A stretch of DNA of 44,925 nucleotides from a virus. The stretch covers positions 1-44,925 of the IMG/VR virus record IMGVR_UViG_3300028883_000709; one strand, written 5' to 3'. Made by a program: the position numbers and the translations under genes. The notes below the pieces were generated by a model. It searched no databases and had not been told where the DNA came from. It saw only the letters and a list, made by a program, of their open reading frames with translations. Below are positions 1,409 to 41,629 of the stretch, one piece after another (within the stretch, counting starts at the first letter, position 1; each line of letters starts with the position of its first letter).

Positions 1409-1414
1409 ACTATT

Positions 1415-2938: not shown

Positions 2939-2958
2939 ATTAAAAATATTATAAAGAA

Positions 2959-3309
2959 ATGAAAAAAACAATATTTTTAGATATTGACGGGTGTATATTT
3001 AAACATAAAGGAAATTTATCAACACAAATATTAGAACCCGAAGAATTATTACCCGGAGTTTTAGAAAAAATAAATAAATGGGATGCTGATGGGCATAAAA
3101 TAATTCTTGTTACAGGAAGAAAAGAATCTTTAAGAAGTTTTACAGAAAAACAATTATTAAAACACGGTATTTATTATGATGATTTAATTATGGGTGTTAA
3201 TCGTGGAGAAAGAATAATTATAAACGATAAAAAACCAACAAATGATATGACAGTAGCCAGAGCAATTCAAATTCCAAGAAATGAAGGTTTAATAAATGTA
3301 TATATTTAA
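2959..3309 (+). CDS. Small HAD-superfamily phosphatase
   Basis: This 116-residue protein begins FLDIDGCIF, the HAD motif I DxD (Asp 8 nucleophile, Asp 10 acid/base). VTGRKESLR is motif II, and INDKKPTND near the end supplies the later Lys/Asp motif. There is no cap domain, so the substrate is probably a small sugar phosphate. Proteins with the same LLPGVLEKINKWD..GHKIILVTGR pattern occur in capsule and LPS clusters. It sits between two radical SAM paralogues within one operon. Substrate specificity is not deducible. Confidence 0.8.
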   Translation: MKKTIFLDIDGCIFKHKGNLSTQILEPEELLPGVLEKINKWDADGHKIILVTGRKESLRSFTEKQLLKHGIYYDDLIMGVNRGERIIINDKKPTNDMTVARAIQIPRNEGLINVYI

Positions 3310-3310
3310 A

Positions 3311-4822
3311 ATGAAGAAAGATTTTAAAATATTATTATTATATCCGTCTGAAACATTATCAGGAATTGCGCCAAGTAATTTGGCTATTCTTTCTGCATGT
3401 TTAAAACAAGACGGGTTTTCTACAAAGTTATTTGATTGTGGTTTATATAGAAGTACTTCAACAATAACACAAGATACTGTACGTTCAAAATTAGGCCATG
3501 TTAAATTAACTAACATTGATGATCTAATTCAATGTAAAGAAACCGATATATATCAAGATTTCATTAAAATGATAGAAGAATATAAACCAGATTTAATAGG
3601 TATTACATTAATTGATAGTACTATAAGATATGGCTTATCTTTTATAGAAAAAATTAAAGATAAAAAAATACCAGTTATTGTTGGAGGTGTAGGACCAACA
3701 TTTTTATATGAAAAAATTTTTAAAACAGATTTAGTAGATTATATTTGTATTGGAGAAGGAGAAGAAGCTATAGTAGAATTGTGTAATAAAATGTATAATA
3801 ATGAAGATTGTACTAATATAAGGAATATTTATACAAGAGACAAAGATAAAAATATAATAAAAAATTCATTACGTTCATTTATAGATCTTAATAAATTACC
3901 AATACCCGATTTTTCTATATATGAAGATTCTAGAATTTATAGACCATTTATGGGAGAAGTAATGAGAATGATTCAAATAGATATAGATAGAGGATGTCCT
4001 TTTGCATGTACATATTGTGCAGCGCCAAGTTTAAGAGATAATTTTAAAAATTATCATTGTGGAATTTATTATAGAACTAAAGATATAGATAGAATATTTA
4101 AAGAAATTAAATTTTTAATTAAAGAATATAATTTAAATTTTGTTTGGATAAGTTCAGAAACATTTATGGCTCTTTCAGATAAGAAATTTAGAGAATTTGC
4201 CGAAAGATATAAAAAGGAAATTAATTTACCAATGTGGTGTCAAAGTAGATTAGATAAATTTACAGATGAAAAAACTCGATTATTATCAGAAATGAAATGT
4301 AAAAATATTTCTGTTGGATTAGAACATGGATCAGAAGAAATAAGAAAACAAATATTAAATAAACACATAACAAATGAAACAATTATAGATGCAGTTAAAT
4401 TAATGAAAAAATATAACATCTTTCCAACATTTAATAATATGATAGGACTTCCAGATGAAACAAGAGAGAATATATTTGAAACTGTGGAATTAAATAGAAA
4501 ACTTTCAAAAATTTTAAATAAAAAACATAATACAAATGTATTTACTTTTATACCTTTTTCCGGAACTAAATTAAGAAGAATAGCCATTGAAAAAGGATAT
4601 ATTGAAAAAAATGATGAAGTTCCTTTAAGTTGGTATACAGAAAGTACATTAACAATGCCATCTATTTCAAAAAAAGAATTAGCAGGATTAGAAAAAACTT
4701 TAACATTATATATTTTTTTACCAAAAAAATATTGGCCTGAAATTAAAATAGCAGAACAGAATAATGAAAAAGGACAACAAAAATTTAATGAATTAATGGA
4801 AATACTTAAAGAATATAAGTAA
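3311..4822 (+). CDS. B12-binding-domain radical SAM protein (copy 2)
   Basis: Taken from the ATG at 3311, two bases after the HAD stop, this is 503 residues; an in-frame ATG at 3296 would overlap the previous gene and adds only MYIFK. The N-terminal half has the GGVGPTFLYEK and IGEGEEAIVEL patterns of cobalamin-binding radical SAM proteins. The cluster motif is DRGCPFACTYCAAPS with Cys 229, 233 and 236. The C-terminal half has the TIM-barrel signatures SVGLEHGSEEIRK and GLPDETREN. It shares layout and many local motifs with the 1415-2938 protein, so the pair arose by an old duplication or joint acquisition. Probable role: methylation or rearrangement of a glycan or lipid precursor. Confidence 0.85.
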   Translation: MKKDFKILLLYPSETLSGIAPSNLAILSACLKQDGFSTKLFDCGLYRSTSTITQDTVRSKLGHVKLTNIDDLIQCKETDIYQDFIKMIEEYKPDLIGITLIDSTIRYGLSFIEKIKDKKIPVIVGGVGPTFLYEKIFKTDLVDYICIGEGEEAIVELCNKMYNNEDCTNIRNIYTRDKDKNIIKNSLRSFIDLNKLPIPDFSIYEDSRIYRPFMGEVMRMIQIDIDRGCPFACTYCAAPSLRDNFKNYHCGIYYRTKDIDRIFKEIKFLIKEYNLNFVWISSETFMALSDKKFREFAERYKKEINLPMWCQSRLDKFTDEKTRLLSEMKCKNISVGLEHGSEEIRKQILNKHITNETIIDAVKLMKKYNIFPTFNNMIGLPDETRENIFETVELNRKLSKILNKKHNTNVFTFIPFSGTKLRRIAIEKGYIEKNDEVPLSWYTESTLTMPSISKKELAGLEKTLTLYIFLPKKYWPEIKIAEQNNEKGQQKFNELMEILKEYK

Positions 4823-5952
4823 TGTTATATCAAGAGAGAAAAAAAAGTATATTAACAAATGGAAAATTAGAAGAACTACATTCTATTAAAAAATTTCCTG
4901 TTTTTATAGGCGCAACAAAAAAACCTTTTAAAACTGACACGTTTTCAGATTTAACTTTTGATATTTGTAAAGAAACAGGAATTATTCAATTAAGAAATTT
5001 AATAGATCCAAATATTGTATATTCCGAATTTCATTCAGAAAGTTTAGGAAAAATTTGGGAAGATCATCATAATTTATTAGCTAAATTAATTTCAAAATAT
5101 TCAGATAATAAAGCAATATTAGAAATAGGAGGCTCTGATTCACGTTTAGCATTAAAAACATTAAATATAAATAAAAAAATTAATAAATGGGATATTATTG
5201 AACCAAATATTAAAAATAGAATTAATCATAAAAAAATTTCATATATTGAAGATTTTTTTGATGTTAAAAAAATTAAATCAACATATAATTTAATCATTCA
5301 TTCTCATGTTCTAGAACATGCATATGATCCACATATATTTTTAGATAATATAAAAAGTTGTATTGAAGATGGTGATTATCATATTTTTTCAGTACCAAAT
5401 TTATATGAATCACTAAAAAATAAATATGTAAATACATTAAATTTTGAACATACATTATTTTTAACAGAAGAAATTATAGATTATCTTTTATCTTGTAAAA
5501 ATTTTGAAATAGTTGAAAAAGAATATTATAAGAATCAAAGTATTTTCTATGTTACTAAAAAGAACAAATTGATAAAGCCTATTAAATTAAAAAATAATTA
5601 TAAGAAATATAAAAAATTATATTTAAAATTTTTGAATTATTATTTAAATTTTGTAAAAAGAGCTAATAAAAAAATAGAAAAGCATAAAGGAGATATTTAT
5701 TTATTTGGTGGACATGTATTTTCTCAATATCTAATAACCTTAGGATTAAATTATTCTAAAATTAAATATGTGTTAGATAATTCTAAACTTAAAAATGGAA
5801 AAAGATTATATGGATCTAAATTAATAATTAAATATCCCCAAGAAGTAAAGTTAGATGAAAATAGTTTAATTATACTTAAAGTAGGACAATATAGAGACGA
5901 GATTAAAACTAAGTTAATAAATATCAATAAAAATATTGGATTTATAGAATAA
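4822..5952 (+). CDS. SAM-dependent C-methyltransferase-like protein
   Basis: This 376-residue protein has the class I SAM motif ILEIGGSDSRLA near residue 95 and HSHVLEHAYDP about 60 residues later, a common post-motif in sugar methyltransferases. The segment VYSEFHSESLGKIWEDHH before motif I and a C-terminal Rossmann-like part (IYLFGGHVFSQYLITLG, then VLDNSKLKNGKRLYG) match the layout of sugar C-methyltransferases with a Methyltransf_14-type tail. The zinc-binding cysteines of classical members are not evident. The start overlaps the preceding stop (TAATG), so it is translationally coupled. Likely target: a deoxysugar made by this operon. Confidence 0.75.
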   Translation: MLYQERKKSILTNGKLEELHSIKKFPVFIGATKKPFKTDTFSDLTFDICKETGIIQLRNLIDPNIVYSEFHSESLGKIWEDHHNLLAKLISKYSDNKAILEIGGSDSRLALKTLNINKKINKWDIIEPNIKNRINHKKISYIEDFFDVKKIKSTYNLIIHSHVLEHAYDPHIFLDNIKSCIEDGDYHIFSVPNLYESLKNKYVNTLNFEHTLFLTEEIIDYLLSCKNFEIVEKEYYKNQSIFYVTKKNKLIKPIKLKNNYKKYKKLYLKFLNYYLNFVKRANKKIEKHKGDIYLFGGHVFSQYLITLGLNYSKIKYVLDNSKLKNGKRLYGSKLIIKYPQEVKLDENSLIILKVGQYRDEIKTKLININKNIGFIE

Positions 5953-5956
5953 TAAG

Positions 5957-6592
5957 ATGATTGTAATATCGACTTATAACGGACAAGATTATTTACCTCA
6001 TTTATTAAAAGATATTAAAGAATTTAATATATCAAATGACAAAATATGTATAGTAGATGACAAATCTACAGATATGCTATTTGTTAAGTATTTAGTTGAT
6101 TTAAAAAAAGATGGATATAATATTTTATGTAATCCAGTAGTATCATATGAATTAGGAGCACTTAAATATGCTCATGATAATTTAAAAGATGATGTATGGT
6201 ATTCAATGCAAGATAGCATAAGATTAAAATATAACATATTTGATGAAATAAGACCAAAATTGACAAATAAAAACATGTATACCTTTTTGACATTTGCTCC
6301 AGGAATATATGATAATATGGATGATCGTACATTTTTAACATTACATTATGGAACACTGCATTATTCAAAAGGTATATTTACAAATAGTATATTTGCTTTA
6401 GATGAAGTAATACAAAGGGTTAAAAATGATTGGTATATACCCAAAAATAAAATAGAAGCAGCGGGTTCAGAACGAGGAATAAGTGTTGTTTTTGAACGTC
6501 ATGGCATTGAAATAAATAGTTTAGGCATATATGATCCTCCAAAAACTTCTGATCCAAATGGATATCCATTTTTTTATAAGATATATCGATAG
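5957..6592 (+). CDS. GT2-like glycosyltransferase (tandem copy 1)
   Basis: This 211-residue protein starts MIVISTYNGQDYLPHLLKDI and continues to ICIVDDKSTD, the nucleotide-sugar binding start of GT-A fold family 2 enzymes. The C-terminal end (GIYDPPKTSDPNGYPFFYK) is shared with the next gene. The protein is short for GT2 and has no clear DxD, so it could be a minimal transferase or an inactive relative. It starts 5 bases after the methyltransferase stop. Confidence 0.65.
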   Translation: MIVISTYNGQDYLPHLLKDIKEFNISNDKICIVDDKSTDMLFVKYLVDLKKDGYNILCNPVVSYELGALKYAHDNLKDDVWYSMQDSIRLKYNIFDEIRPKLTNKNMYTFLTFAPGIYDNMDDRTFLTLHYGTLHYSKGIFTNSIFALDEVIQRVKNDWYIPKNKIEAAGSERGISVVFERHGIEINSLGIYDPPKTSDPNGYPFFYKIYR

Positions 6593-6609
6593 AAATTAAA
6601 ATAAAAAAT

Positions 6610-7266
6610 ATGAAAAAGTTAGTAGTAACAACAACTTATAATGGAAAAGATTTATTAAAAAATCTTATTTCAGATATTAACTCATTTGGAATTAAAAATG
6701 AAGAAATTTGTATAGTAGATAATAAATCAACAGATGAAGAACATTTAAAATATTTAGAAGAACTTAAAAACAATGACTATGTTGTTTTATATAATACATA
6801 TGGAGGATTTAATATCGGCGGATATAAATATGCACTTGATAATTTAAAAGCAGATGTTTGGTTTTGTATGCAAGATAGTATAAGAATAAAACAAGATATT
6901 TTTTCATATATAATTCCAAAACTTACAGATAATAATGTATATACATTATTAACATTTCCTTCTGGATTATATGACGATCGTAATGATATAACATTTTTAT
7001 CGATACACTATGGAACTTCAACATACTCAGCTGGTTGTTTTCCACATGCATATTTTGCTAAAGATAGTGTTTTACAGAAAGTTAAAAATGAATGGGTGAT
7101 TCCTCGGAATAAAATAGAAGCGTGTGGAATGGAAAGGGGAGCTCCAGTAGTTTTTGATAAATATGGAATAAAAATACACGGGTTAGGAGTTTATGATCCA
7201 CCAAAAACAGGAGATCCAAATGGATATCCATTCTTTTATAAAATTTATGGAGGAAGAGCACATTAA
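6610..7266 (+). CDS. GT2-like glycosyltransferase (tandem copy 2)
   Basis: This 218-residue protein is a clear tandem duplicate of 5957-6592: both share TYNG near the start, CIVD.KSTD, a WF/YS.MQDSIR block in the middle, NKIEA.G.ERG, and DPPKT.DPNGYPFFYKIY at the end. The two copies have diverged elsewhere, so they probably act on different acceptors or add sequential sugars. The gene overlaps the next one by one base. Confidence 0.65.
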   Translation: MKKLVVTTTYNGKDLLKNLISDINSFGIKNEEICIVDNKSTDEEHLKYLEELKNNDYVVLYNTYGGFNIGGYKYALDNLKADVWFCMQDSIRIKQDIFSYIIPKLTDNNVYTLLTFPSGLYDDRNDITFLSIHYGTSTYSAGCFPHAYFAKDSVLQKVKNEWVIPRNKIEACGMERGAPVVFDKYGIKIHGLGVYDPPKTGDPNGYPFFYKIYGGRAH

Positions 7267-7886
7267 TGAAATATTCAATAATCATACCTTCTAATAATTT
7301 CAAATTAGCAGAAAAAGCTAAAGAATGTTTAATAGGATTTCCTATTAAGATTTTTGATGGAACTAATTATCCTTCATATGCAAAATTAATTAATGATTGT
7401 ATAATAGATGCTGATGAAGAAATAGTAATTATAGTTAATCATAAATTAAGACCTAATGCTATGCATATATATAAAATGATTGAATTAATACATAAGAAAT
7501 ATGGTTTAGTATGTATGAGAAATTTTCATTTCTATGGATTTAAAAAAGATTTAATAAGAAAAATAGGATTTTTTGATGAAAGATATATAGGTGGAGGGTG
7601 TGAAGATGCAGATTTAATAAGAAGATTAATAGAAAATAATATTGGATGGTATGATTCTGTAGAAGTTCCAGTATTAAGTATTCATTCTACATGGGATCAA
7701 ACAAAGGCATATGATTTTTTCTATAAAAAATGGAAAGATGGAAAATTAGAAAGATTAATACCAGATGAAAAATATGATTATGATATAGGAGAATATAAAG
7801 GAGCAAATTTTTTAGGATTAGAACATACAATATTATCAAAAACTAATAGAGATTATTTTAATTCTATAGAATTTAAATTTAAATAA
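7266..7886 (+). CDS. GT-A fold glycosyltransferase
   Basis: This 206-residue protein has a truncated GT2-like start (KYSIIIPSNNF) and the strong C-terminal motif GFFDERYIGGGCEDADLIRR, the acceptor-side ED pair seen in galactosyl- and N-acetylgalactosaminyl-transferase C-terminal domains (GWGxEDxDL type). The acidic pair Glu-Asp is the probable catalytic base region. It is compact but complete in layout. It lies between the tandem GT2 genes and the exostosin-like gene, with 0 to 2 base spacing. Confidence 0.7.
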   Translation: MKYSIIIPSNNFKLAEKAKECLIGFPIKIFDGTNYPSYAKLINDCIIDADEEIVIIVNHKLRPNAMHIYKMIELIHKKYGLVCMRNFHFYGFKKDLIRKIGFFDERYIGGGCEDADLIRRLIENNIGWYDSVEVPVLSIHSTWDQTKAYDFFYKKWKDGKLERLIPDEKYDYDIGEYKGANFLGLEHTILSKTNRDYFNSIEFKFK

Positions 7887-7887
7887 T

Positions 7888-8772
7888 ATGTTAGATTATA
7901 TAAATACTAATACATTTAGAGATTTTGCTGATTTTAAAATAATATTTGAAGGAGATTTTTCAGATTCTATTTTACAACGAAACGCAATTATTTATTGTAA
8001 AACAGATAGAATTCCATATTTATTTCCTAAACTTGAATTATCTAATAGAAAATATATTTTAATTACACATGCTTCAGATTTTCCTATTAATGAACGTGTA
8101 TTTAATCTTAGGCCTTCTTGTATCAAAAAATGGTATGCAGAAAATGCTACATTTAATCATCCTGATCTAATAACAATACCCATAGGTTTAACACCAAATA
8201 AAGGATATGACAAAACTATTTTAGATTTAAGTTGGTTTATAGATAATATAGAATTGCTAAGAAAAAATAAAAAAGATTTTGAAACATTATATTGCAATTG
8301 GACTACAAGAAATTATCCTTCTATAAGATCTCATGTTTTAGAAAAATTAGATAAAAATAATATAAGATATTTTTGGGATTTTAAATTTCCTAATAACATA
8401 GATCAATTAATTCAAGATAAAATAAAAGAAATTGAACAAGGAAAATCAACTAAAGAAGAATTAAATAAATTAGTAAGATATTATGAATATTGTGAAAATA
8501 TGTCTAAACATAAATTTGTAGTTTCTCCTAGAGGTAATGGAGAAGATACACATAGAACATGGGAAGCTCTTTATATGGGTTGTTTCCCAATAGTATTAAA
8601 AAGTAATATATTTAATGAGTACAAAGACGATCTTCCTATTATACAAGTTAATGATTATTCTGAAGTTACATATGATTTATTACTTTCATATTTAAATAAA
8701 GAATATAATTATGAAAAATTGTATATGTCTTATTGGAAAAATAGAATAATAAAAGAATTTAAACAATTATAA
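7888..8772 (+). CDS. Exostosin-like glycosyltransferase
   Basis: This 294-residue protein carries KFVVSPRGNGEDTHRTWEAL followed by YMGCFPIVLKSN, the signature of the exostosin (GT47-like) C-terminal domain that binds the nucleotide sugar. The N-terminal half is less conserved. Such proteins are common in phage, cyanobacterial and algal glycan clusters. It follows the preceding gene by one base. Confidence 0.75.
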   Translation: MLDYINTNTFRDFADFKIIFEGDFSDSILQRNAIIYCKTDRIPYLFPKLELSNRKYILITHASDFPINERVFNLRPSCIKKWYAENATFNHPDLITIPIGLTPNKGYDKTILDLSWFIDNIELLRKNKKDFETLYCNWTTRNYPSIRSHVLEKLDKNNIRYFWDFKFPNNIDQLIQDKIKEIEQGKSTKEELNKLVRYYEYCENMSKHKFVVSPRGNGEDTHRTWEALYMGCFPIVLKSNIFNEYKDDLPIIQVNDYSEVTYDLLLSYLNKEYNYEKLYMSYWKNRIIKEFKQL

Positions 8773-8795
8773 ATATATAAATAAATATAACAATT

Positions 8796-9341
8796 ATGTA
8801 TTGCGATAGTATAGAAGGAGCGTTTACATTTAAAGGATTTTATAACGCTATAATTAATAAATTTGATAACGGTATATTTGTAGAAATAGGCACGTATAAA
8901 GGAGCATCTATAATGTTCTTAGCAGAAAAGATTAAAGATTTAAATAAGAACATTAAACTATATGGCATTGATACATTTGAAGGTTCTATAGAACATCAAG
9001 AAGACCCGGAAGTAAAGGCTGGAAAATTATATGAAGTATATCTTAAAAATATAGATCCTTTAAAGGATTATATTATTACTATTAAAGGAAATAGTAAAGA
9101 AGTTTATAAACAATTTGAAGATGAAAGTATTGATTTTTTATTTATAGATGCTGATCATGCATATGAATCAGTTAAAAAAGATCTTGAATTATGGTTTCCA
9201 AAAATTAAAATTGGAGGTATAATCTCAGGTCATGACTATTTATGGATAGACGGAAGAGTTAAAAGAAGCGTAGATGAATTTTTTGCTCCACGTATTGTTA
9301 ATAAAGGAGTTGGAGATGTTTGGTATATAACTAAAAAATAA
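8796..9341 (+). CDS. Class I SAM methyltransferase (Methyltransf_24-like)
   Basis: This 181-residue protein has FVEIGTYKGASIMFLA (SAM motif I, Glu-Ile-Gly), YGIDTFEGS (motif II acidic residue) and DFLFIDADHAYESVKKDL, the IDADHxYxxVxxDL block typical of the Methyltransf_24/TylF-like group of sugar O-methyltransferases. GGIISGHDYLW follows. It likely O-methylates a sugar of the glycan assembled by the operon. Confidence 0.8.
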   Translation: MYCDSIEGAFTFKGFYNAIINKFDNGIFVEIGTYKGASIMFLAEKIKDLNKNIKLYGIDTFEGSIEHQEDPEVKAGKLYEVYLKNIDPLKDYIITIKGNSKEVYKQFEDESIDFLFIDADHAYESVKKDLELWFPKIKIGGIISGHDYLWIDGRVKRSVDEFFAPRIVNKGVGDVWYITKK

Positions 9342-9343
9342 AA

Positions 9344-10048
9344 ATGATGATACCTATATTCGTATTAAATTTAGAAAGAGCAGAAGATAGAAAAAATTCC
9401 ATGATTAAACAATTTATAAATCTTGGAATGAAAGAAAATAAAGATTATTTCTTCATTCCAGCGTATGATGGAATTAATATAACAAATTTTTCATTTAATG
9501 TTAACATAGGAATGGGATATGGTGCAGGTAGGAAATTTGAAAAAGGAGAAATCGCAATAATAATATCTCAACTTGCAGCTATAAAATTTGCGCAAATGTT
9601 AAATTTTGAAAACATTATTATAATAGAAGATGATGTAGTTTTATGTGAAGATTGGAATAAAAGATTAGAAACATTATTTAGCTTATTACCTAATGATTGG
9701 GAACACGTATATTTAAGTGGTCATAGTGATTATGTTAAATTTAATAGATGTGAAGTACCTACAATTATTCCTTCCCCAAAAATGGTTGGTGCATTTAGTT
9801 ATATGTTAAATAAAAGAGCGTATGCTCGAATTTCTAAATTTTGCATGTCATTTTTAACTACATATGATGATATGATTATGCATATGATTGATCAAAATAA
9901 ATTAAATAGTTATGCTTATTTTCCTTTTATGAGTTTTCATGATGCAAATAATTCATTTGTATGGGATGAATCTGGAAAACAAGTTGGCCATCTTACAAGT
10001 AAAGATAAAATTCACAGTTCTTATTATTTCTTTAAATCTAAAATATAA
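9344..10048 (+). CDS. Glycosyltransferase family 25 (LPS-type)
   Basis: This 234-residue protein starts IPIFVLNLERAEDRKNSM, the GT25 opening (xINLxRxxxR), then FIPAYDGI, GEIAIIISQLAAIKFA and IIIEDDVVLCEDW, the metal-binding EDD motif. GT25 enzymes transfer Gal or Glc in LPS/LOS outer core synthesis. The protein is of usual length. It is coupled to the next gene by a one-base overlap. Confidence 0.85.
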   Translation: MMIPIFVLNLERAEDRKNSMIKQFINLGMKENKDYFFIPAYDGINITNFSFNVNIGMGYGAGRKFEKGEIAIIISQLAAIKFAQMLNFENIIIIEDDVVLCEDWNKRLETLFSLLPNDWEHVYLSGHSDYVKFNRCEVPTIIPSPKMVGAFSYMLNKRAYARISKFCMSFLTTYDDMIMHMIDQNKLNSYAYFPFMSFHDANNSFVWDESGKQVGHLTSKDKIHSSYYFFKSKI

Positions 10049-10764
10049 TGAAACTATTAGCATTAATATTAACGTCAAAAAATAATCCACATTATGAAGT
10101 ATTTAATGAAGGAGTAATGAAAACTTGGGCATCTAAAAGTTATAAAAATATAAATATACTTCCGTATTTTGGAAGATCTGGAAAAACAACAGAAATAGTA
10201 AATAACGTATTATACGTTAATGCACCGGATAATTTTTTAACATTAAAAACATTATTAGCATTTGAATACGCTTTAAATAATATAGAATTTGATTTTTTAA
10301 TTAGGCCTAATGTAAGCACATATGTAAGAATTAAAAAATTATATGATTATTTATATAAAAAACCAAAAAATAATTATTATGCAGGACCATTATTAAATAT
10401 AGATGGCGTTAAATATCCTTCCGGAACATTAATGATGTTTTCAAAAGATATTATTAAAAAAATTGTAGATGGAAAATCTATTATTAATGAAAATCAATAT
10501 GCAGATGATTGGTGCATAGGAAAATATTTACAAGATCAAAAAATTAAAATGTCAGAAGATATACAACATTATAGTTTAATTGATCATTGGCCTGAAGAAA
10601 AATTAATAAATAAAATGTTTAATACTCCTAAAGAAGAATTTGAAAAATATATGACATTTAGATGTAAAACAGAAGTTCCGCCCGATCCTATTCTTAGGTC
10701 TGTAATGAAAAGAAATGATCCCCTTAAGATGAAATATTTACATAAATTTTTTAAAGATGAATAA
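10048..10764 (+). CDS. GT31/fringe-like putative glycosyltransferase
   Basis: This 238-residue protein resembles beta-3-galactosyltransferase/fringe-type enzymes in layout: KLLALILTSKNN at the start, EVFNEGVMKTWA, FDFLIRPNVSTYVRI where a metal motif usually lies, YPSGTLMMFSKDI, and DDWCIGKYL as the late acidic motif. The canonical DxD is replaced by RPN, so activity or metal use is unclear. It overlaps the next gene by 8 bases. Confidence 0.55.
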   Translation: MKLLALILTSKNNPHYEVFNEGVMKTWASKSYKNINILPYFGRSGKTTEIVNNVLYVNAPDNFLTLKTLLAFEYALNNIEFDFLIRPNVSTYVRIKKLYDYLYKKPKNNYYAGPLLNIDGVKYPSGTLMMFSKDIIKKIVDGKSIINENQYADDWCIGKYLQDQKIKMSEDIQHYSLIDHWPEEKLINKMFNTPKEEFEKYMTFRCKTEVPPDPILRSVMKRNDPLKMKYLHKFFKDE

Positions 10765-11461
10765 TGAAATATACATATGGCATCATTTAGGATTAGGTGA
10801 TCATATTACATGTAATGCTATAGTTAGAAATTATGCTAAAATGTATGACAAGGTTTATCTATTTGTAAAATATAGAAATTTAGATAATGTAAAATATTTA
10901 TATAGAGATTTAAATAATATAGAATTTATATATGGAAAAGGGGAACAAGATGAATTTGTTCATTTCTATTTAATGACTCATCCAAATATTAATTTACTAA
11001 AATTATGGTTATCAAATGAAAAAATAATCGAAAGCGGATTAAAGTTTGATGAGCTATTTTATAAAGAAGCAAATATTCCATTTTCAAAAAAAATGGAAGA
11101 TTGTTTTATTTTAAGAGATGAAAAAATAGAAGAACAAGTTTGTAAAACTTTAAATCCTAAAAATGAACCTTATATTTTTGTTCATCATGATACTGATAGA
11201 GATCATAAGATAGATTTCTCTCATTTTAAAAATAAAAGTTTAAAAGTAATAGAATCAAATTTTAAATTAGAAGAAGAAAAAGACTTTTTAATATTTCATT
11301 ATTTAAAACTAATAGAAAATGCAGCAGAAATACACGTAATGGAAAGTTCTTTTTCTGTAATGATAGATGTTTTTATAGAAAACCATAATGATGCATATCT
11401 TCATAAATACGTAAGAAATATTGATTCTATTAGAAGACCATACTGGAAAATAATTAATTAA
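10757..11461 (+). CDS. Putative glycosyltransferase-like protein
   Basis: This 234-residue protein opens with WHHLGLGDHITCNAIVR, reminiscent of the nucleotide-binding start of heptosyltransferase-like GT-B proteins (GLGDxI). The second half (PYIFVHHDTDRDHKIDFS) could form the second Rossmann domain, although the protein is short for a GT-B enzyme. The function is inferred mostly from this motif and the surrounding glycosyltransferases. Confidence 0.45.
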   Translation: MNNEIYIWHHLGLGDHITCNAIVRNYAKMYDKVYLFVKYRNLDNVKYLYRDLNNIEFIYGKGEQDEFVHFYLMTHPNINLLKLWLSNEKIIESGLKFDELFYKEANIPFSKKMEDCFILRDEKIEEQVCKTLNPKNEPYIFVHHDTDRDHKIDFSHFKNKSLKVIESNFKLEEEKDFLIFHYLKLIENAAEIHVMESSFSVMIDVFIENHNDAYLHKYVRNIDSIRRPYWKIIN

Positions 11462-11472
11462 AAAATATACTA

Positions 11473-12084
11473 ATGATTAAACATATTAACAATAGTTTTG
11501 AAAAGGCAGAAAAAGACATTTCTAAATTAGATCCTGAGATATTATCTATTGAAGGATTGACAGGAAATAAAATTAAACACATGCTAAATAATATAATTGA
11601 TTTTTCGGGTGCAAATCATCTAGAAATTGGAGTTAACAAGGGTGCCACATTAACAGCATCGCTATACAAAAATAAGCCGAATGTTAGTTATGCAATAGAA
11701 ATAAATACTAAATATAATGAATTATTAAGTAATTTAAAAACAAAATTTAATTTAAACTATACATATTTAAATGAAGATTGTTTTGATTTAGACTTATCAA
11801 AAATTAAAGAAAAAATAAATGTTTATTTTTTTGACGCAGAACATAGATATGAAGATCATTATAAATCTTTAGAATATTATTACCCTATATTGGATGATGA
11901 ATTTATTTTTATTGTAGATGATTGGGCAGTAGAAACAGACCCATATTATAAAAATTGGAAACAAGTGTCAATCGCAACACTTGATGCGATTAAAGATCTT
12001 AACTTAAAAATAACCTACCAAATCACTAGGCCAAGATCTCCAGGATGGCATCAAGGAATATGGGTATCATTATTAAAAAAATAG
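11473..12084 (+). CDS. Class I SAM methyltransferase
   Basis: This 203-residue protein has NHLEIGVNKGATLTASLY as SAM motif I and YAIEIN as motif II, then INVYFFDAEHRYEDHYKSLE, matching the FxDAxHxYxxxxxDL block of Methyltransf_24-like enzymes. FIVDDWAVE follows. It is distinct from the 8796 copy and less canonical. A sugar is the likely methyl acceptor. Confidence 0.75.
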   Translation: MIKHINNSFEKAEKDISKLDPEILSIEGLTGNKIKHMLNNIIDFSGANHLEIGVNKGATLTASLYKNKPNVSYAIEINTKYNELLSNLKTKFNLNYTYLNEDCFDLDLSKIKEKINVYFFDAEHRYEDHYKSLEYYYPILDDEFIFIVDDWAVETDPYYKNWKQVSIATLDAIKDLNLKITYQITRPRSPGWHQGIWVSLLKK

Positions 12085-12089
12085 TTAAT

Positions 12090-12464
12090 ATGAAAATAGA
12101 AGTACCAATATCATTAGGAGAATTATATGATAAAATATCAATTCTTGAAATAAAAAGGGAAAATATAAGAGACGAACAAAAATTAATTCATGTTAATAAA
12201 GAACTAGAGTTATTAAAAGAAATATCTAATATTTATCCTATTGAGCCAGATCTTTATATACGTTTAAAACGAGTAAATCTCCATTTATGGCAAATAGAAG
12301 ATAATATACGAATGAGAGAAAAAGAACAAAGGTTTGATGACTATTTTATTCATTTTGCCAGATCGGTTTATAAGACAAATGATGAAAGAAGCGAAATTAA
12401 AAGAGAAATTAATGAACAATATGATAGTGATATCGTTGAAGTAAAATCATATGAAAAATACTAA
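12090..12464 (+). CDS. DUF6165-like protein of unknown function
   Basis: The ATG at 12090, six bases after the previous stop, gives 124 residues; an in-frame ATG at 12045 lies inside the upstream gene and is unlikely. The start MKIEVPISLGELYDKISILE with later LHLWQIEDNIR resembles small helical proteins found beside glycosyltransferases in bacteria and phages (DUF6165 as I recall it). No catalytic motif is visible. It overlaps the next gene by 14 bases. Confidence 0.6.
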   Translation: MKIEVPISLGELYDKISILEIKRENIRDEQKLIHVNKELELLKEISNIYPIEPDLYIRLKRVNLHLWQIEDNIRMREKEQRFDDYFIHFARSVYKTNDERSEIKREINEQYDSDIVEVKSYEKY

Positions 12465-13275
12465 ATTAAATAATCTTGTTATTGGAAATACGTCGCAATT
12501 AGCACATTATTTTCCTAATGAATATGAAAAAATATCATCTAGAAATATAAATTTTGATGATTATAAAAATAAATTTTACGATAGAATATTTTTATGTTTT
12601 GCAGAACAAAGAACATTTTTAGGAAATGATACTAAGTTATTTTTTGACATTAATGTTGATTATACAACAGATTTTATTAGTTATTTTAAGAAGAAATGTA
12701 ATAAAATAATTGTATATGGTACAGCAGAACTATGGAATAATTATGAAGGGCCTATATCAATAGATGATAAATATAATTATAATATTACATCTTATATTGC
12801 ATCGAAATCGGAATTGTGTAATCAGATTAATAATTATAGAGAAAACAATTTATTAAATAATTGTATTGTTATTCATCCATTTAATTTTAATTCAACCTAT
12901 CGTAAAGATGGATTTCTTTTTTCAAAGATTTTTGATTCCATAATTAATGAAAAGAAAATAGAAATTGGTGACACTTATTTTTATAGAGACTTAGTTCATC
13001 CAAAATATGTTGTTGAAAGATCTATTGAAGCAGAAAAAGATGAAATTGTAGGTTCTGGAAGACTAATACATGTAAATGATTTTATTAGAGATTTATATCA
13101 TTTTAATTTTTTAGATTATGATGATTATGTAACTGAAAATTACGATCATAATTTAAGTAATAAACGAAAAATATATTATTTAAAAAGTACTAAATGTAAT
13201 TACGATTATCAAATGTTATTATCTGATACTATAAAAGATATACATAATGCAAGAATACAAAATAAAACTAGTTAA
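12451..13275 (+). CDS. SDR-like (NAD-dependent epimerase/dehydratase related) protein
   Basis: This 274-residue protein looks like a degenerate extended SDR: LVIGNTSQLAHYFP replaces the usual TGxxGxxG, a YIASK segment supplies a YxxxK catalytic pair, and FYRDLVHPKYVVE resembles the xRDxxxVxDxV block of sugar-nucleotide dehydratases. The weak glycine-rich loop makes cofactor binding uncertain. It overlaps the start of the DegT gene by 29 bases, so both are coupled and may act on the same nucleotide sugar. Confidence 0.6.
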   Translation: MKNTKLNNLVIGNTSQLAHYFPNEYEKISSRNINFDDYKNKFYDRIFLCFAEQRTFLGNDTKLFFDINVDYTTDFISYFKKKCNKIIVYGTAELWNNYEGPISIDDKYNYNITSYIASKSELCNQINNYRENNLLNNCIVIHPFNFNSTYRKDGFLFSKIFDSIINEKKIEIGDTYFYRDLVHPKYVVERSIEAEKDEIVGSGRLIHVNDFIRDLYHFNFLDYDDYVTENYDHNLSNKRKIYYLKSTKCNYDYQMLLSDTIKDIHNARIQNKTS

Positions 13276-14434
13276 TGATACAATAACACAGGATGATGTT
13301 AAAAAATTATCTGAATGGTTATTAACAAATCCAAGATTAACAAAAGGAGAAAAAACTGTAGAATTTGAAAATTTTTGGTCTAAATGGCAAGAAAGAAAAC
13401 ATACAGTATTCATGAATTCTGGCTCTTCTGCTAATTTAGCTATGATATATGCGTTAATGTTATCAGGGAGATTAAAGAATAAAAAAATTATAGTTCCAGC
13501 TGTTTCATGGGTTACTACAGTTTCACCTGTTATTCAATTAGGATTAGAACCTATTATGTGTGATGCAGATCGTCATACTCTTGGATTAGATATTGATCAT
13601 TTAAAAGCTCTTATAAAATTAGAAAAACCTGCAGTAATAATTCTTGTTCATGTTCTTGGTTTTCCGAATAAAATGAAAGAAATTCAAGAATTATGTAAAG
13701 AGAATAATATTATATTGCTTGAGGATTCATGTGAAAGTATGGGTTCTATGTATGATGGAATTAAAACAGGAAATTTTGGTCTTATGAGTTCATTTTCAAC
13801 ATACTTTGGCCATCATTTCTCGACCATAGAGGGAGGCATGGTGAATACTGATGATGAAGAATTATACCATATATTACTGTCTATTCGAAGTCACGGGTGG
13901 GATCGAGATTTACCCGAGAAGGAACGTAGACGCTTAAGAGAAGAAGAAGGTGTCTCAGAATTTCGTGCACTATATACATTTTATTATCCAGGATTTAATT
14001 TAAGATCTACAGATTTACAGGCATTTATTGGCATAGAACAATTAAAGAGATTAAATGAAATTGTTAAAATAAGAAATAAAAATTTCAAATTATATGATTC
14101 ATTAGTTGATGAAAAATACTATTGGAAAATTAGAGAACGTGATAATACTTTCGTTTCAAATTTTGCATATCCTATAATAATGAGATATTCAGAGTTATGG
14201 AAAAATGACCAAAAATTTAATGAATTAATAACAAAATTACAAAATAATGGAGTTGAAATACGTCCCCTTGTTTGTGGGTCTATTGGAGAACAACCATTTT
14301 GGAAAAAAATGTATAAAAGACAACATACTCCATTTGCAACCATGGTTCATAATAATGGATTATATCTTCCAAATAATCCTCAAATTAAAGAAGAAGAAAT
14401 TGAATTTATTTGTAATATAATTAATAAAATATAA
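13247..14434 (+). CDS. DegT-fold sugar 3-dehydratase-like protein (His replaces PLP Lys)
   Basis: This 395-residue protein has the DegT/DnrJ/EryC1/StrS fold: FMNSGSSANLAM binds PLP phosphate, EDSCESMGSMYDG provides the Asp to the PLP ring, and SSFSTYFGHHFSTIEGGM covers the internal-aldimine site. In aminotransferases such as ArnB this site reads KNITxxEGG; here it reads HHFSTIEGG (His 189/190). This is the substitution known from ColD (GDP-4-keto-6-deoxymannose 3-dehydratase) and the E1 enzyme of CDP-3,6-dideoxysugar synthesis, where His acts as base and the enzyme removes the 3-OH. The most likely product is therefore a 3-deoxy-4-keto sugar. The nucleotide attached cannot be inferred. Confidence 0.85.
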   Translation: MQEYKIKLVNDTITQDDVKKLSEWLLTNPRLTKGEKTVEFENFWSKWQERKHTVFMNSGSSANLAMIYALMLSGRLKNKKIIVPAVSWVTTVSPVIQLGLEPIMCDADRHTLGLDIDHLKALIKLEKPAVIILVHVLGFPNKMKEIQELCKENNIILLEDSCESMGSMYDGIKTGNFGLMSSFSTYFGHHFSTIEGGMVNTDDEELYHILLSIRSHGWDRDLPEKERRRLREEEGVSEFRALYTFYYPGFNLRSTDLQAFIGIEQLKRLNEIVKIRNKNFKLYDSLVDEKYYWKIRERDNTFVSNFAYPIIMRYSELWKNDQKFNELITKLQNNGVEIRPLVCGSIGEQPFWKKMYKRQHTPFATMVHNNGLYLPNNPQIKEEEIEFICNIINKI

Positions 14435-14439
14435 AAATA

Positions 14440-14593
14440 ATGAAAAAATACTATAGTCAAGCAGGGCAAGATAAATGGGAAGAGGAATTTTTTAATGGAA
14501 AAAGAAGGGGCTATTTTATAGAAATTAGGGTATGACGGAATAACCTTTAGTAACACTTATAAATTAGAAAAAGAATTAAATAAAAAATATTAA
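14440..14593 (+). pseudogene. Fragment of FkbM-type methyltransferase gene, frameshifted
   Basis: From the ATG at 14440 the frame reads MKKYYSQAGQDKWEEEFF, then GKRRGYFIEI, and hits a stop at 14532-14534. Shifting by one base at about 14530 continues as YDGITFSNTYKLEKEL and ends at a TAA at 14591. This matches the first 45 residues of the intact gene that starts 5 bases downstream (QHKQDEFIINYF.GKKNGIFIDVGAHDGITLSNTYVLEK). It is therefore the truncated, frameshifted N-terminus of a second copy: a decayed tandem duplicate or the scar of a recombination that replaced the gene. Confidence 0.8.
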
Positions 14594-14597
14594 TAAA

Positions 14598-15236
14598 ATG
14601 GAATTTAAAAGTCAACATAAACAAGATGAATTTATAATAAATTATTTTAAAGGTAAAAAAAATGGTATATTTATAGATGTAGGTGCACATGATGGAATAA
14701 CACTTTCAAATACATATGTATTAGAAAAATACTATGGATGGAGTGGAATATGTATAGAACCTATTGATTATGAATATGAAAAATTAGTAGAATGTAGAAA
14801 TTGTGTAACATATAATTGTGCTTGTTATGACAAAAATGGAACTGAAAAATTTACATTAGTAGAATATGATGGATATCCTGATATGTTAAGTGGAATATCA
14901 AGAGAAATTACATTTAAAGCTATGAACGATATTCTATCAGAAGGAACAAGAATGGGTGCAAAATTAAAAATAATAGAAGTTGAAACACGTATATTAAATG
15001 AATTACTTGAAGAATGTGGATTATATGATATAGATTTTATGTCAATAGATACTGAAGGTTCAGAACTTAAAATATTAGAAAGTATAAATTATAATAAATT
15101 TAATATACATGTTCTTATATTTGAAAATGGAAATAATATTTCTGAAACTAGAGATTTTATAAAAACGAAAAATTTTTATTTTTATAAAAAATTAGGATGC
15201 GATGATGTTTATATAAATAATAAATTTAAAGAATGA
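14598..15236 (+). CDS. FkbM family methyltransferase
   Basis: This 212-residue protein has FIDVGAHDGITLSNTYVLEK (SAM motif I of FkbM proteins), GICIEPIDYEYEKL (motif II), and DIDFMSIDTEGSELKIL, the FxKIDxEGxExxxL signature of the family. FkbM enzymes O-methylate sugars and polyketides. The gene overlaps its downstream neighbour by 4 bases and is preceded by a broken partial copy of itself. Confidence 0.9.
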   Translation: MEFKSQHKQDEFIINYFKGKKNGIFIDVGAHDGITLSNTYVLEKYYGWSGICIEPIDYEYEKLVECRNCVTYNCACYDKNGTEKFTLVEYDGYPDMLSGISREITFKAMNDILSEGTRMGAKLKIIEVETRILNELLEECGLYDIDFMSIDTEGSELKILESINYNKFNIHVLIFENGNNISETRDFIKTKNFYFYKKLGCDDVYINNKFKE

Positions 15237-15901
15237 AAAAGATAATTAGTTTTGCTATATGGGGGTCAAATCCTAAATATGCTGATGCAGCTATACTAAA
15301 TGCAAAATTACAGCCTGAAATTTATCCTGAATGGACATGTAGATTTTATGTAGATGATACAGTTCCAGAACATATTACTAATGAATTAAAAGATTTGAAA
15401 TCAGAAGTTGTTATAATGCCTCGTTCTGATGGCAATTATGGGTTATTTTGGAGATTTGAACCATTAAAAGATACATCTGTAGAAAGATTTATAGTTAGAG
15501 ATGCAGATTCTAGATTAAATGTTAGAGAAGCAGCTGCTGTAAAAGAATGGGAAGAATCTGGAAAAGAATTTCATATAATGAGAGATAATCCACAGCATAA
15601 TGCATATATTTGTGGTGGTATGTGGGGTGCAACATCAGAATTTATTAAAAAATATGCAGCATATTATGACAGAGATAGAAATAATTTCATTTCTACACTA
15701 ACATTTTTTGAACTAAATAAACCACGTGGAAAATATTTTAATACTGATCAACCATTTTTATGGAGATGTGTATGGCCTAGAATTATCAATTCTCATATAG
15801 CTCATATTAAAGATTTACCGCAATTAAGATTTACAGGACGAGAAAAGTTATTTCCTATTGAAAATCCAGATGGAATGTTTGTCGGAGAACCTATTGATTA
15901 A
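15233..15901 (+). CDS. Putative GT-A glycosyltransferase
   Basis: This 222-residue protein starts KKIISFAIWGSNPKYADAA and has FIVRDADSRLNVREAAAV, a DxD-type metal and nucleotide-sugar motif, followed by CGGMWGATSEF and YFNTDQPFLW. The pattern resembles small GT-A transferases of surface glycan clusters. It is the last gene of the + strand operon; the bidirectional hairpin at 15935-15959 follows. Confidence 0.6.
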   Translation: MKKIISFAIWGSNPKYADAAILNAKLQPEIYPEWTCRFYVDDTVPEHITNELKDLKSEVVIMPRSDGNYGLFWRFEPLKDTSVERFIVRDADSRLNVREAAAVKEWEESGKEFHIMRDNPQHNAYICGGMWGATSEFIKKYAAYYDRDRNNFISTLTFFELNKPRGKYFNTDQPFLWRCVWPRIINSHIAHIKDLPQLRFTGREKLFPIENPDGMFVGEPID

Positions 15902-32993: not shown

Positions 32994-33000
32994 GTATTGG

Positions 33001-33082
33001 AGCCGATGGGGAGACTCGAACTCCCGTGTCCTTTCGGAGCCGGTTTACAAAACCGGTGCTGTCGCCACTGAGCCACATCGGC
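33001..33082 (-). tRNA. tRNA-Thr(TGT) with long variable arm
   Basis: Acceptor GCCGATG/CATCGGC, D stem GCT/AGC, anticodon stem CCGGT/ACCGG around TTTGTAA (TGT), T arm GGGAG-TTCGAGT-CTCCC. The variable region is 14 bases (CTCC-GAAA-GGAC-AC), as in class II tRNAs such as Tyr, which is abnormal for Thr. A one-base shift would give GTA (Tyr) but loses the stem pairing, so Thr is preferred. Confidence 0.7.
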
Positions 33083-33288: not shown

Positions 33289-33573
33289 AAAATAATACGA
33301 GCTTAACCAGGATTCTGTTTCGATCTATCATTTATCTAAGCCTCTACCTTGTTATCATTGGCCAGCTCACCGCCTAAACTGTTTTGAGTTGCATACTCGG
33401 CAGTACAAGCGATAGTTTCGGGTCTTTCGAGGTTCCTGGTTTGATAAACATAATACGAACCTTTTTTAATAATTGCTTATCCTAACAGCTTTAACTTACT
33501 ATCTCCTGCCTTAAGCTGATATGTCCTGAGTTTCCTCTTACTTATGTAAGCGATAGATTCTCTATATTATTTT
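33289..33573 (-). ncRNA. rnpB: RNase P RNA
   Basis: The - strand carries all core elements of bacterial RNase P RNA in about 285 bases. P1: AAAATAATA (33565-33573) pairs with TATTATTTT (33289-33297). P2: ATCTATC (33552-33558) with GATAGAT (33323-33329). P3: CTTAC-ATAA-GTAAG. P4: AACTCAGGA (33524-33532) pairs with TCCTGGTT (33305-33312), leaving the T bulged, exactly as the conserved bulged U of P4 (E. coli AAGUCCGGG / CCCGGCUU). Conserved sequence near both ends also fits: GAGGAAACTCAGGAC against GAGGAAAGTCC, and AGATAAATGAT...ACAGAATCC against AGATGAATGAC...ACAGAACCC. RNase P RNA is the catalytic part of the enzyme that cuts 5' leaders from pre-tRNAs. It lies between tRNA genes. The 5' end overlaps the stop of the upstream gene by 12 bases. 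No gene for the protein subunit is seen here, so the host protein may be used. Confidence 0.9.
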
Positions 33574-33828
33574 ATTTGAAAGAACAATAACTTCTTTAAC
33601 TTCTCCTGAGATAGATCTCCATGCATTTTTACTAAAATCAAAATATCTAAGATTTTTGTATTCTGTATTAGATGTACTACTATCTTTAGGCCTTAAATTT
33701 TCAGGAATCAATTCCATCTTAAGTGTTCCTATAGCACCTCTTTTTGTACCATCCCTTTTTTGATATTCAAAAATTACTTTGCCATTTCTTAATTTTTCAT
33801 ATAATTCTTCTTTTTTTACTGTAATCAT
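33562..33828 (-). CDS. DUF2693-like small beta-barrel protein
   Basis: This 88-residue protein has KLRNGKVIFEYQKRDGTKR, GTLKMELIPENL and a final RYFDFSKNAWRSI, a pattern I associate with DUF2693/SH3-like proteins of Bacteroidetes and their phages (KxxGTxRxAxGTL, then YxDxxxxxWRSF). Function unknown. It has its own promoter-like site upstream, and its transcript would continue into the RNase P RNA and tRNAs. Confidence 0.7.
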   Translation of the reverse strand: MITVKKEELYEKLRNGKVIFEYQKRDGTKRGAIGTLKMELIPENLRPKDSSTSNTEYKNLRYFDFSKNAWRSISGEVKEVIVLSNKII

Positions 33829-36318: not shown

Positions 36319-37125
36319 CTACCAGGCTATTATTTTATAATCAATATACGGAAATTTAGTTCTAAATGCATTTTCTTTTAATTTTGTTTCTTCTAATTCT
36401 GCATTCCATTTATTTTTTATTTCTCTAATCTGATTATCTTCTACTAAAAAATCAGGTTGATAAGTTCTTTCAATGCCCTGTTTATCTTTATATTTTACTT
36501 TAAATTCTTTTGGTTCATATGTAAACTTAGAAATTAATTCATTTTCATTTATTTTATCAACAAATATTTTTTCATAACTTGATCTAACAGCAAATATTTT
36601 ATTTCCTGTATGTTTTTTCGAAAAAACTTTTATATTTTTAGTATTTTTGGGACTTTTTCCATACATTCCATTTTTATTTCCAGCGTTTTTTCCTTTACAG
36701 CTTTTACTAATTTTTGTCCTATATTCTATGGAAGAATGTAAACATTTACTACATAAATTAGTTTTTCTTTTTCTTGATAATTCCTTTCCACAATTATTAC
36801 AATAATATTTTTTCTTATTTATTTTAGTATTACCTTTTGCTATTTTTCTTTTTGTTTCTTCTGATCTCGGCCCTCTGTTATTAGCACAAGATCTTGAACA
36901 ATAATATTTTTCCTTTTTTGGTTTATCTGTATTATATTCTTTTATAGAAATTTCTTTTTTACAAATATGACAACTAACTATAAATTCTTTCCATTTATTT
37001 TTATTAGTTTCTTTTATTTTTTGTATTCTTTTCTCTCTATTAGGATTTTTAATACAATTTGTTAAATGTGCTCCAAAACTTCTTCCGCTTGGATAATTTC
37101 TATTACAAAATGGGCATTTTCTCAT
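36319..37125 (-). CDS. Putative homing endonuclease: zinc fingers, NUMOD3-like motif, PD-(D/E)XK
   Basis: This 268-residue protein has a C2H2-like finger (Cys 4, 7, His 20, Cys 24), a second four-Cys cluster (52, 55, 76, 80), SEETKRKIAKGN resembling NUMOD3, a third four-Cys cluster (109, 112, 125, 128), and a C-terminal nuclease-like part with TYQPDFLVEDNQIREIKNKW (PD 224-225, then E-x-K 235-237). It is highly basic. This fits a free-standing homing endonuclease that targets DNA near tRNA genes, and it lies between two tRNA-Gly genes. It shares the finger and the PDF...ExK core with the products at 39073 and 40967. Confidence 0.75.
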   Translation of the reverse strand: MRKCPFCNRNYPSGRSFGAHLTNCIKNPNREKRIQKIKETNKNKWKEFIVSCHICKKEISIKEYNTDKPKKEKYYCSRSCANNRGPRSEETKRKIAKGNTKINKKKYYCNNCGKELSRKRKTNLCSKCLHSSIEYRTKISKSCKGKNAGNKNGMYGKSPKNTKNIKVFSKKHTGNKIFAVRSSYEKIFVDKINENELISKFTYEPKEFKVKYKDKQGIERTYQPDFLVEDNQIREIKNKWNAELEETKLKENAFRTKFPYIDYKIIAW

Positions 37126-39072: not shown

Positions 39073-39636
39073 TTATTTCCAAGAATATTGTTTATATGTA
39101 ATATTACAACTTTTATATTCTTCTATAATACCTAATTTTTGTAATTCAGGACCACTTATTATTTTTAGATCTAAAGGAAATTGATCCCATTTTGAAAAAT
39201 CTTTTTTAGTAGGATATCCTTTTATTTCTACATATTTTTTTTCATCTATAAGATAAAAATCAGGAGTATAAAAACTATTTCTTTTTTCAAAAATATATGG
39301 AAATTTTTCGTTAGGCCTTCTCCAATTTATGCCCTCTTTATCTAAATATTTAGCATATTCTAATTCCCATTTTCCATGAAACTTTTCACCTTTATATTCA
39401 TGTATTCTTGATTTAGAAAAAGATAAATGCCATTCATTATTTTTTACTTTTTTTCTAATAGTCTTAGAAATTTTTTCTCTATTCTCTGGATTAAATGAAG
39501 GATTATTTATTTTTAATTTTTCCGATATTTTTTTACATGTTTCTTCTCTTTTAGGATTATTCTTACACCAAACTACATGTCCACCTAATTTAACTCCCGT
39601 AGGAAATTGTTTTCCACAATATTTACATTTATGCAT
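39073..39636 (-). CDS. Putative homing endonuclease, PD-(D/E)XK type
   Basis: This 187-residue protein has an N-terminal finger (Cys 4, 7, His 20, Cys 24) matching the one at 36319 (RKCPFCNRNYPSG against HKCKYCGKQFPTG). The nuclease core has WELEYAKYLDKEGINWRRP, FPYIFEKR, and FYTPDFYLIDEKKYVEIKG (PD 125-126, E-x-K 137-139). It lies between aberrant tRNA-like loci and tRNA-Asn. A DNA-cutting mobile element is the best reading. Confidence 0.75.
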   Translation of the reverse strand: MHKCKYCGKQFPTGVKLGGHVVWCKNNPKREETCKKISEKLKINNPSFNPENREKISKTIRKKVKNNEWHLSFSKSRIHEYKGEKFHGKWELEYAKYLDKEGINWRRPNEKFPYIFEKRNSFYTPDFYLIDEKKYVEIKGYPTKKDFSKWDQFPLDLKIISGPELQKLGIIEEYKSCNITYKQYSWK

Positions 39637-40851: not shown

Positions 40852-40977
40852 TTATCTTTTACTCTTTTCCGGTTTTATTTTTTTTCCAACTGGGTCTTTT
40901 TCTTTTGGAGGAGATTTAACTTTATATCCATCTTTATCATCATTTGTCCAGGTTCGTTTTTCTTCTTTAATATTCAT
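40852..40977 (-). CDS. Small basic protein, unknown
   Basis: An ATG at 40977, overlapping the stop of the endonuclease gene, opens a 41-residue frame (MNIKEEKRTWTNDDKDGYKV at the start) ending in KPEKSKR. Highly charged and probably disordered. Coupled to the endonuclease gene. Confidence 0.4.
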   Translation of the reverse strand: MNIKEEKRTWTNDDKDGYKVKSPPKEKDPVGKKIKPEKSKR

Positions 40978-41629
40978 TTTCAAATTGTTTTAAGGGTATA
41001 CCAAATTTTTGGTAACGGGGATCATCACCTATTATTATAAGTAAATCTAAATCATTAGTTTTAACTGCGTCTTTCATTTTATGATTCATTTTTTCAGTTA
41101 CCCATCCTTTGTATTCAATATACTTATTTTCATTTACTACAAAATCAGGATAATATTTTCTAGGTTTTCCTTCTAATGTAGTGTATGGAAATCCTTTTGT
41201 ATTTCTTTTCCAATTTAATTGTTTTTCATCAAGAATTTTAGCTACTTTTATTTCTTCTTTATTTAATTTCATATTTTCTCCAAGCCAATTAGTATATGAA
41301 ATTTGTTTAGCTTTTCCTCCTCCTTCTCTAAAACCTCCCATTTTAGAAGTATCAGCTACCATATTATGTTTTTTACCTGTATTTTTAATTTTTGATAACT
41401 CGTGCCCGCATTTTACACTACAAGTTTTTCTATTTGTTTTATATTTTGTACCACATATTGGACAAATTTTATAAGAAATAATATAATTCTTAGATAATTT
41501 TTTTCTTACCTTTTCGTTTATTTCTTTTCGTTTAGCTTTAGTACTAAATCCTTTAGCACATTTATTTGAACAAAATCTTCCTGAAGCATAAGAACCGTCA
41601 TGTTTACAACCACAATTTTCGCATTTCAT
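40967..41629 (-). CDS. Putative homing endonuclease, PD-(D/E)XK type
   Basis: This 220-residue protein has two four-Cys clusters (MKCENCGCKHDG...FCSNKCAKG; KICPICGTKY...CSVKCGHEL) and a C-terminal nuclease core: KILDEKQLNWKRN, FPYTTLEG, YYPDFVVNENKYIEYKGW (PD 161-162, E-x-K 172-174). It shares this core with the products at 36319 and 39073. It sits between a tRNA-like gene and tRNA-Trp. Confidence 0.75.
   Translation of the reverse strand: MKCENCGCKHDGSYASGRFCSNKCAKGFSTKAKRKEINEKVRKKLSKNYIISYKICPICGTKYKTNRKTCSVKCGHELSKIKNTGKKHNMVADTSKMGGFREGGGKAKQISYTNWLGENMKLNKEEIKVAKILDEKQLNWKRNTKGFPYTTLEGKPRKYYPDFVVNENKYIEYKGWVTEKMNHKMKDAVKTNDLDLLIIIGDDPRYQKFGIPLKQFENEY

Follow-up and report, generated by a model that had tools for sequence, protein, structure and literature searches.

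Bacterial type A RNase P RNA (Rfam model RF00010; the E. coli M1 RNA belongs here) contains helices P1-P7 and P15-P17, a P6 pseudoknot, a bulged U in P4, the ACAGAA string of J18/2 and a GGU in L15. Its specificity (S) domain reads the tRNA elbow, and loss of this domain slows the E. coli RNA about 120-fold (PMC5839562). Substrates are still cleaved by the E. coli catalytic domain on its own, with the P6 pairing helping and P18 being dispensable, and an engineered C-domain ribozyme of this kind (CP RPR) is active in vitro (PMC5839562). In archaeal type T RNAs, such as those of Pyrobaculum, the S domain is degenerate, P6 is present and P18 is absent (PMC5839562). Ribozymes linked to phage tRNAs are represented by the theta ribozymes of phage tRNA clusters, which have a small HDV-like fold, different from that of RNase P RNA (PMC10879173). 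An Rfam scan of megaphages in one study reported only tRNAs and a tmRNA (PMC8172020), and the huge-phage paper has no mention of RNase P in its main text (PMC7162821). We found no phage-encoded rnpB in the literature, within a search confined to open-access papers, with most subscription papers and all preprints outside it. To judge from the literature open to search, RNase P was not previously known to be phage-encoded. The RNase P RNA gene of yeast mitochondria, RPM1, adjoins tRNA genes within a single transcript; it resembles the phage RNA described below in lying beside tRNA genes, but is mitochondrial, very A+T-rich and of unrelated origin.

A putative RNase P RNA gene in a phage tRNA array

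The window, by which we mean the whole 44,925-base stretch analysed, is a virus fragment (IMG/VR record IMGVR_UViG_3300028883_000709) that encodes a T4-type major capsid protein (PF07068, PHROG 138) and a head protease, and carries 19 tRNA genes on its minus strand. Because a secreted protein encoded in the window bears a CHU_C type IX secretion signal, the predicted host of the phage is suggested to be a member of Bacteroidota. The features around the putative RNase P RNA gene are as follows.

33289-33573, minus strand: RNase P RNA (rnpB-like), P1 to P1; full-length RF00010 match, 103 bits with our model R1, covariation
33560-33573, minus strand: P1 5' strand, partner 33289-33301; from sequence
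33289-33301, minus strand: P1 3' strand; from sequence
33552-33557, minus strand: P2 5' strand, partner 33324-33329; covarying helix
33324-33329, minus strand: P2 3' strand; covarying helix
33537-33550, minus strand: P3 hairpin CTTACATAAGTAAG; from sequence
33524-33532, minus strand: P4 5' strand AACUCAGGA, with the bulged U (E. coli U69); P4 fully paired (8 of 8)
33305-33312, minus strand: P4 3' strand UCCUGGUU; P4 pairing
33520-33523, minus strand: P5 5' strand CAUA, partner UAUG at 33392-33395; covarying
33392-33395, minus strand: P5 3' strand UAUG; covarying
33512-33518, minus strand: P6 5' strand CAGCUUA, forming an extended pseudoknot with 33363-33369; covarying
33363-33369, minus strand: P6 3' strand UGAGCUG, in the P17 loop; covarying
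33506-33510, minus strand: P7 5' strand GGCAG, partner 33399-33403; covarying
33399-33403, minus strand: P7 3' strand CUGCC; covarying
33404-33505, minus strand: degenerate specificity domain, 102 nt; CR-II/CR-III motifs not found
33342-33388, minus strand: P15-P16-P17 arm; covarying helices
33346-33348, minus strand: GGU of L15; invariant in 13/13 aligned members
33313-33318, minus strand: J18/2 ACAGAA; from sequence
33562-33828, minus strand: WYL_2 open reading frame (PF10902, Sm-like barrel), its 3' end overlapping P1
33167-33285, minus strand: tRNA-like gene with a long D-loop insertion and, by eye, a Thr NGU-type anticodon; RF00005, 27.5 bits
33090-33162, minus strand: tRNA-Ile(tat)
32998-33082, minus strand: tRNA-Thr(tgt)

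The whole catalytic domain, comprising P1-P7, P15-P17, the bulged U of P4, J18/2 and the L15 GGU, is found at this locus, and the layout of the aligned members is that of the type A catalytic domain. In a test of type A features, P6, P16 and P17 were present and covarying; P6 is extended to seven pairs, and P4 pair 68-358 is C-G in the window RNA. In the window RNA the stretch from L15 to P2 is too short to hold P18; in four relatives (L103, L107, L112 and L113) the same stretch contains a hairpin. A simple pattern screen did not find CR-II or CR-III in the 102-base P7 interior of the window, and the same interior measures about 20-30 nt, or a few tens of bases, in the shortest relatives, where it is sometimes closed by a GAAA loop. 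On re-checking, the coordinates, conserved strings, P1-P4 pairings and P4 bulged U that an earlier note had given for this RNA proved to be correct throughout; its list of helices stood for P1-P4 and had overlooked P5, the P6 pseudoknot, P7, P15-P17 and the L15 GGU. Minimum-free-energy folding of the window RNA gave a z of -1.5, and plain folding is uninformative as proof of structure.

The Infernal search proposed in the same note returned a significant RF00010 match spanning the whole model (cmscan, 33289-33569, model positions 1-367, E 1.5e-8, or 3.2e-10 when the record was searched by itself), though at 32.3 bits it falls under the RF00010 gathering score of 100 bits; the alignment passes over the specificity domain and P18. 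RF00010 was the match retained for the window, and the archaeal model RF00373 matched only one locus (L086), weakly. Since it scores under the gathering score, the window RNA is missed by routine annotation, and a default Rfam scan of the locus reported tRNAs only, with no RNase P RNA. The copies in phage genomes of 595 and 735 kb (see below) likewise fall below Rfam detection, and such sub-threshold scores explain why annotation has overlooked phage RNase P RNA.

By its predicted universal core, that is P4 with the bulged U and J18/2, the window RNA belongs to RNase P RNA. We do not file it under bacterial type A because the S-domain and P18 tests are unmet, while its mode of action is inferred to be that of the type A catalytic domain. 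As judged from sequence, the phage RNAs form a distinct class, marked by an S domain that is reduced or almost lost, by a rewritten P4 and, in the window, by the lack of P18; beyond these differences from type A and the low Rfam score, the class is phage-borne. The window RNA shares the degenerate S domain, the presence of P6 and the absence of P18 with archaeal type T, but P4 and J18/2 are bacterial-like, it is again phage-borne, and there is no evidence for common descent; a test for archaeal-like P4 and J18/2 or archaeal ancestry was not met. It also resembles CP RPR, consisting of little more than a catalytic domain in which P6 is present and P18 dispensable, but is natural and widespread in phages.

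Relatives in viral and cellular sequences

Two sequence patterns and a covariance model retrieved the relatives. Pattern A, made of the two P4 motifs and a spacer with positions 68, 71, 356 and 358 left free, gave 30 viral loci over three scans. The first 8 all match an Rfam RNase P model, and 20 of the remaining 22 match RF00010 at E<=1; the set contains 29 distinct RNAs, in all of which both free positions are paired. Pattern B, made of J5/15, L15 and ACAGAA with both P4 strands left free, gave 59 viral stretches, including two (L168 and L186) that are not RNase P. The covariance model R1, built on 13 members, matches 53 of the 55 new pattern B stretches, the other 4 of the 59 being members of R1 itself. 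Altogether, the pattern and model searches yielded 77 distinct relatives with complementary P4. Almost all of them lie on viral contigs, and most are within tRNA arrays.

R1 also finds the RNA in six records whose capsid proteins are related to that of the window phage, including those of 405 kb and 323 kb, and RF00010 gave no match on these capsid relatives. Two published phage genomes, LR756511 (595 kb) and LR756501 (735 kb), carry one copy each. When the window and its relatives were compared with INPHARED by BLASTN, the signal for this RNA was weak, most matches covering only the neighbouring tRNA-Arg, and 2 of 8 queries reached the 595- and 735-kb genomes. Among 84,980 bacterial and archaeal genomes, pattern B gave 8 matches: 4 by chance, 2 to ordinary Patescibacteria copies and 2 to phage-class RNAs on MAG contigs. 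Both of these MAGs have their own ordinary RNase P RNA elsewhere, and one of the two contigs (32,682 bases) is identical in size and RNA to an IMG/VR contig.

Phages can carry ordinary type A copies as well: a 168-kb viral contig (L084) carries one at 1822-2187 (187.7 bits) alongside a tmRNA. Two unverified fecal phage contigs, MT835553 (L120) and MT835987 (L119), contain type A RNase P RNA at 288 and 96 bits, respectively, for which a bacterial origin is not excluded. The tRNA array of L086 contains, at 6877-6939, a match resembling freshwater-1 RNA (69.1 bits, cutoff 72).

Covariation of the helices and changes in P4

In the 13 aligned members, 99.0% of the 504 pair cells of P2, P4, P5, P6, P7, P15, P16 and P17 are standard pairs. 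Double-changed cells number 86, compared with 23.4 +/- 4.4 in shuffles, and they fall on 23 pairs, compared with 13.0. When partners were slid by 1-3 columns, pairing fell to 27-49%; the structure was partly drawn from the same sequences, which favours the true structure in this control. It is covariation, not folding, that proves the predicted helices.

For the survey of P4 columns we took the 77 distinct cores in which 7 or all 8 of the pairs form. At 67-359 the pair is A-U, G-C or C-G; pair 68-358 is C-G, G-C, U-G, U-A or A-U; pair 71-356 is A-U, G-C or C-G, and pair 72-355 varies too. The bulged U is kept in 77/77. Despite these variable columns, 7 of the 8 P4 pairs form in all 44 relatives found by pattern B only, and the eighth forms in 43 of them, compared with 23-30 of 44 expected from shuffling at the most variable positions. 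Two reservations apply: where several GAGGAA candidates lie upstream the best-pairing one was used, introducing a small bias, and both search patterns bias the P4 sample. The seven cores that have both S-domain motifs all show the ordinary A-U/G-C at 67 and 68, as do five cellular RNase P RNA copies; the cellular comparison consists of the Rfam consensus and these five copies. The comparative evidence indicates that the P4 sequence, near-invariant in cells, has been rewritten in phages by compensatory changes around an unvarying bulged U. Losing the S-domain contact may have freed P4 to drift, as an inference. Such a degenerate-S, rewritten-P4 class offers natural data on a long-standing question, namely how far the P4 metal site needs its sequence as opposed to its pairing.

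tRNA neighbourhood, protein partner and proposed function

The earlier note was exact in placing the end of the RNA 3 bases ahead of a tRNA-like gene, the gene lying at 33285-33167 by RF00005. This gene is kept 3' of the RNA in two relatives (L123/L203 and L124/L179), and a pattern scan of the viral collection found it nowhere beyond these and the window. Its D-loop insertion is about 45 nt long and contains the hairpin UUGGUACCAUU. Across 76 unique members, a recognised tRNA begins within 45 nt (12-36 nt) past the last P4 base in 35, mostly at 12-23 nt, a distance that matches one strand of P1; for positions drawn at random from these loci the figure is 3.5% (binomial p 2e-30, with the caveat that related sequences are not independent). 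This count is too low because the tRNA-like genes of the window, L123 and L124 that follow the RNA escape ARAGORN. In about half of the members, that of the 735-kb phage among them, no recognised tRNA follows directly; the copy of the 735-kb genome is followed, by eye, by a terminator-like hairpin and a T run. Near the RNA, promoter and terminator sites were no commoner than in shuffled sequence. Where the RNA abuts a tRNA, one cut at the tRNA 5' end would also create the RNA 3' end. Maturation of its own 3' end, which the earlier note had suggested, fits the conserved tRNA adjacency and remains inferred, without biochemical demonstration.

We observed no phage RnpA in the 31 records searched, a control search being positive in 10 bacteria; as many of the records are fragmentary, such a gene is not ruled out. 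Because none was found, host RnpA or protein-free catalysis is the likely route for the phage RNA, catalysis itself being inferred. A possible partner of the window RNA is the WYL_2 protein; in four records (the window, L126, L129 and L201) a homologue lies 27-64 nt ahead of the P4 motif. As a general partner WYL_2 was rejected, because just 4 of 80 members have it immediately upstream and the largest genomes lack it.

We hold with good confidence that the locus encodes a phage RNase P RNA, reduced nearly to its catalytic domain and placed in a tRNA array. The RNA would be transcribed as part of the tRNA array and probably work with host RnpA, or by itself; the resulting enzyme would add to or replace host RNase P during the making of phage tRNAs, and cleavage at the downstream tRNA 5' end would release its own 3' end. 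Its structure, conservation and place in the genome are observed features; transcription, cleavage activity, self-processing and the protein partner are inferred only, as is the phage's need for it (host shut-off or irregular tRNAs). The combination of P6, a degenerate S domain and no P18 counts in favour of this explanation because it is active in vitro in the E. coli C-domain (PMC5839562). The points against it are the sub-threshold Rfam score, the largely missing S domain, the lack of an encoded CCA in most tRNAs of the window, the fragmentary records, the roughly half of members without a downstream tRNA and the absence of expression data. A broader proposal is put forward more tentatively, as something short of an even bet: that huge and large phages share a separate catalytic-domain-only class, in which S-domain loss ended P4 docking and allowed P4 to drift, and which provides these phages with a tRNA-processing enzyme of their own, perhaps joined by WYL_2 in one lineage.

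A mainly cis-acting RNA, which cuts the adjoining tRNA in its own transcript and is not a general trans enzyme, would agree with the direct tRNA adjacency of many members and with the loss of the S domain, the part used to recognise tRNAs in trans. Yet the members without a recognised tRNA directly downstream, among them the 735-kb phage, and the single copy per genome in the face of many tRNAs to be cut make this unlikely as the main role. Somewhat more improbable is a decoy that titrates host RnpA or mimics RNase P, and so blocks host tRNA maturation without cleaving. RnpA binds around the helices that the phage RNA retains, the RNA lacks an S domain, and no RnpA was found in the 31 records searched, all of which would suit such a sponge; but the catalytic parts, including the P4 pairs, the bulged U, J18/2 and the GGU, are under selection, and a sponge has no evident need of them or of a position just before a tRNA.

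Host DNA contamination, or a decaying pseudogene of host origin, can draw on the strong ordinary type A copies of some viral contigs, including the two unverified fecal ones. The earlier note had named a host contaminant contig as a refutation of its reading, but 16S rRNA is absent from the 37 carrier records (31 first found and six capsid relatives), 14 of which contain a terminase. Moreover, the RNA is conserved among capsid relatives, the two host MAGs retain separate ordinary copies, and pairing has been upheld through many compensatory changes. For the window's class, covariation and lineage conservation refute this origin, and we give it almost no weight. The phage-encoded RNase P RNA that the earlier note had read from the letters is supported by the universal core, by conservation within the lineage and by recurrence up to the 735-kb genome. 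With it, the translation functions of huge phages would gain tRNA 5'-end processing, and a cut-down RNase P RNA in large bacterial viruses points to viral running of part of the tRNA-making machinery.

Elsewhere in the window, positions 1-15901 on the plus strand, opposite to the tRNA part, hold a long cluster of sugar-nucleotide, glycosyltransferase, radical-SAM-like and transketolase-like genes, identified mostly by eye. Three open reading frames between the tRNA genes (36319-37125, 39073-39636 and 40967-41629) resemble zinc-finger endonucleases, one with zf-C2H2_6 and a weak Phage_endo_I match and another matching endonuclease PHROGs; they are perhaps mobile elements of the tRNA array.
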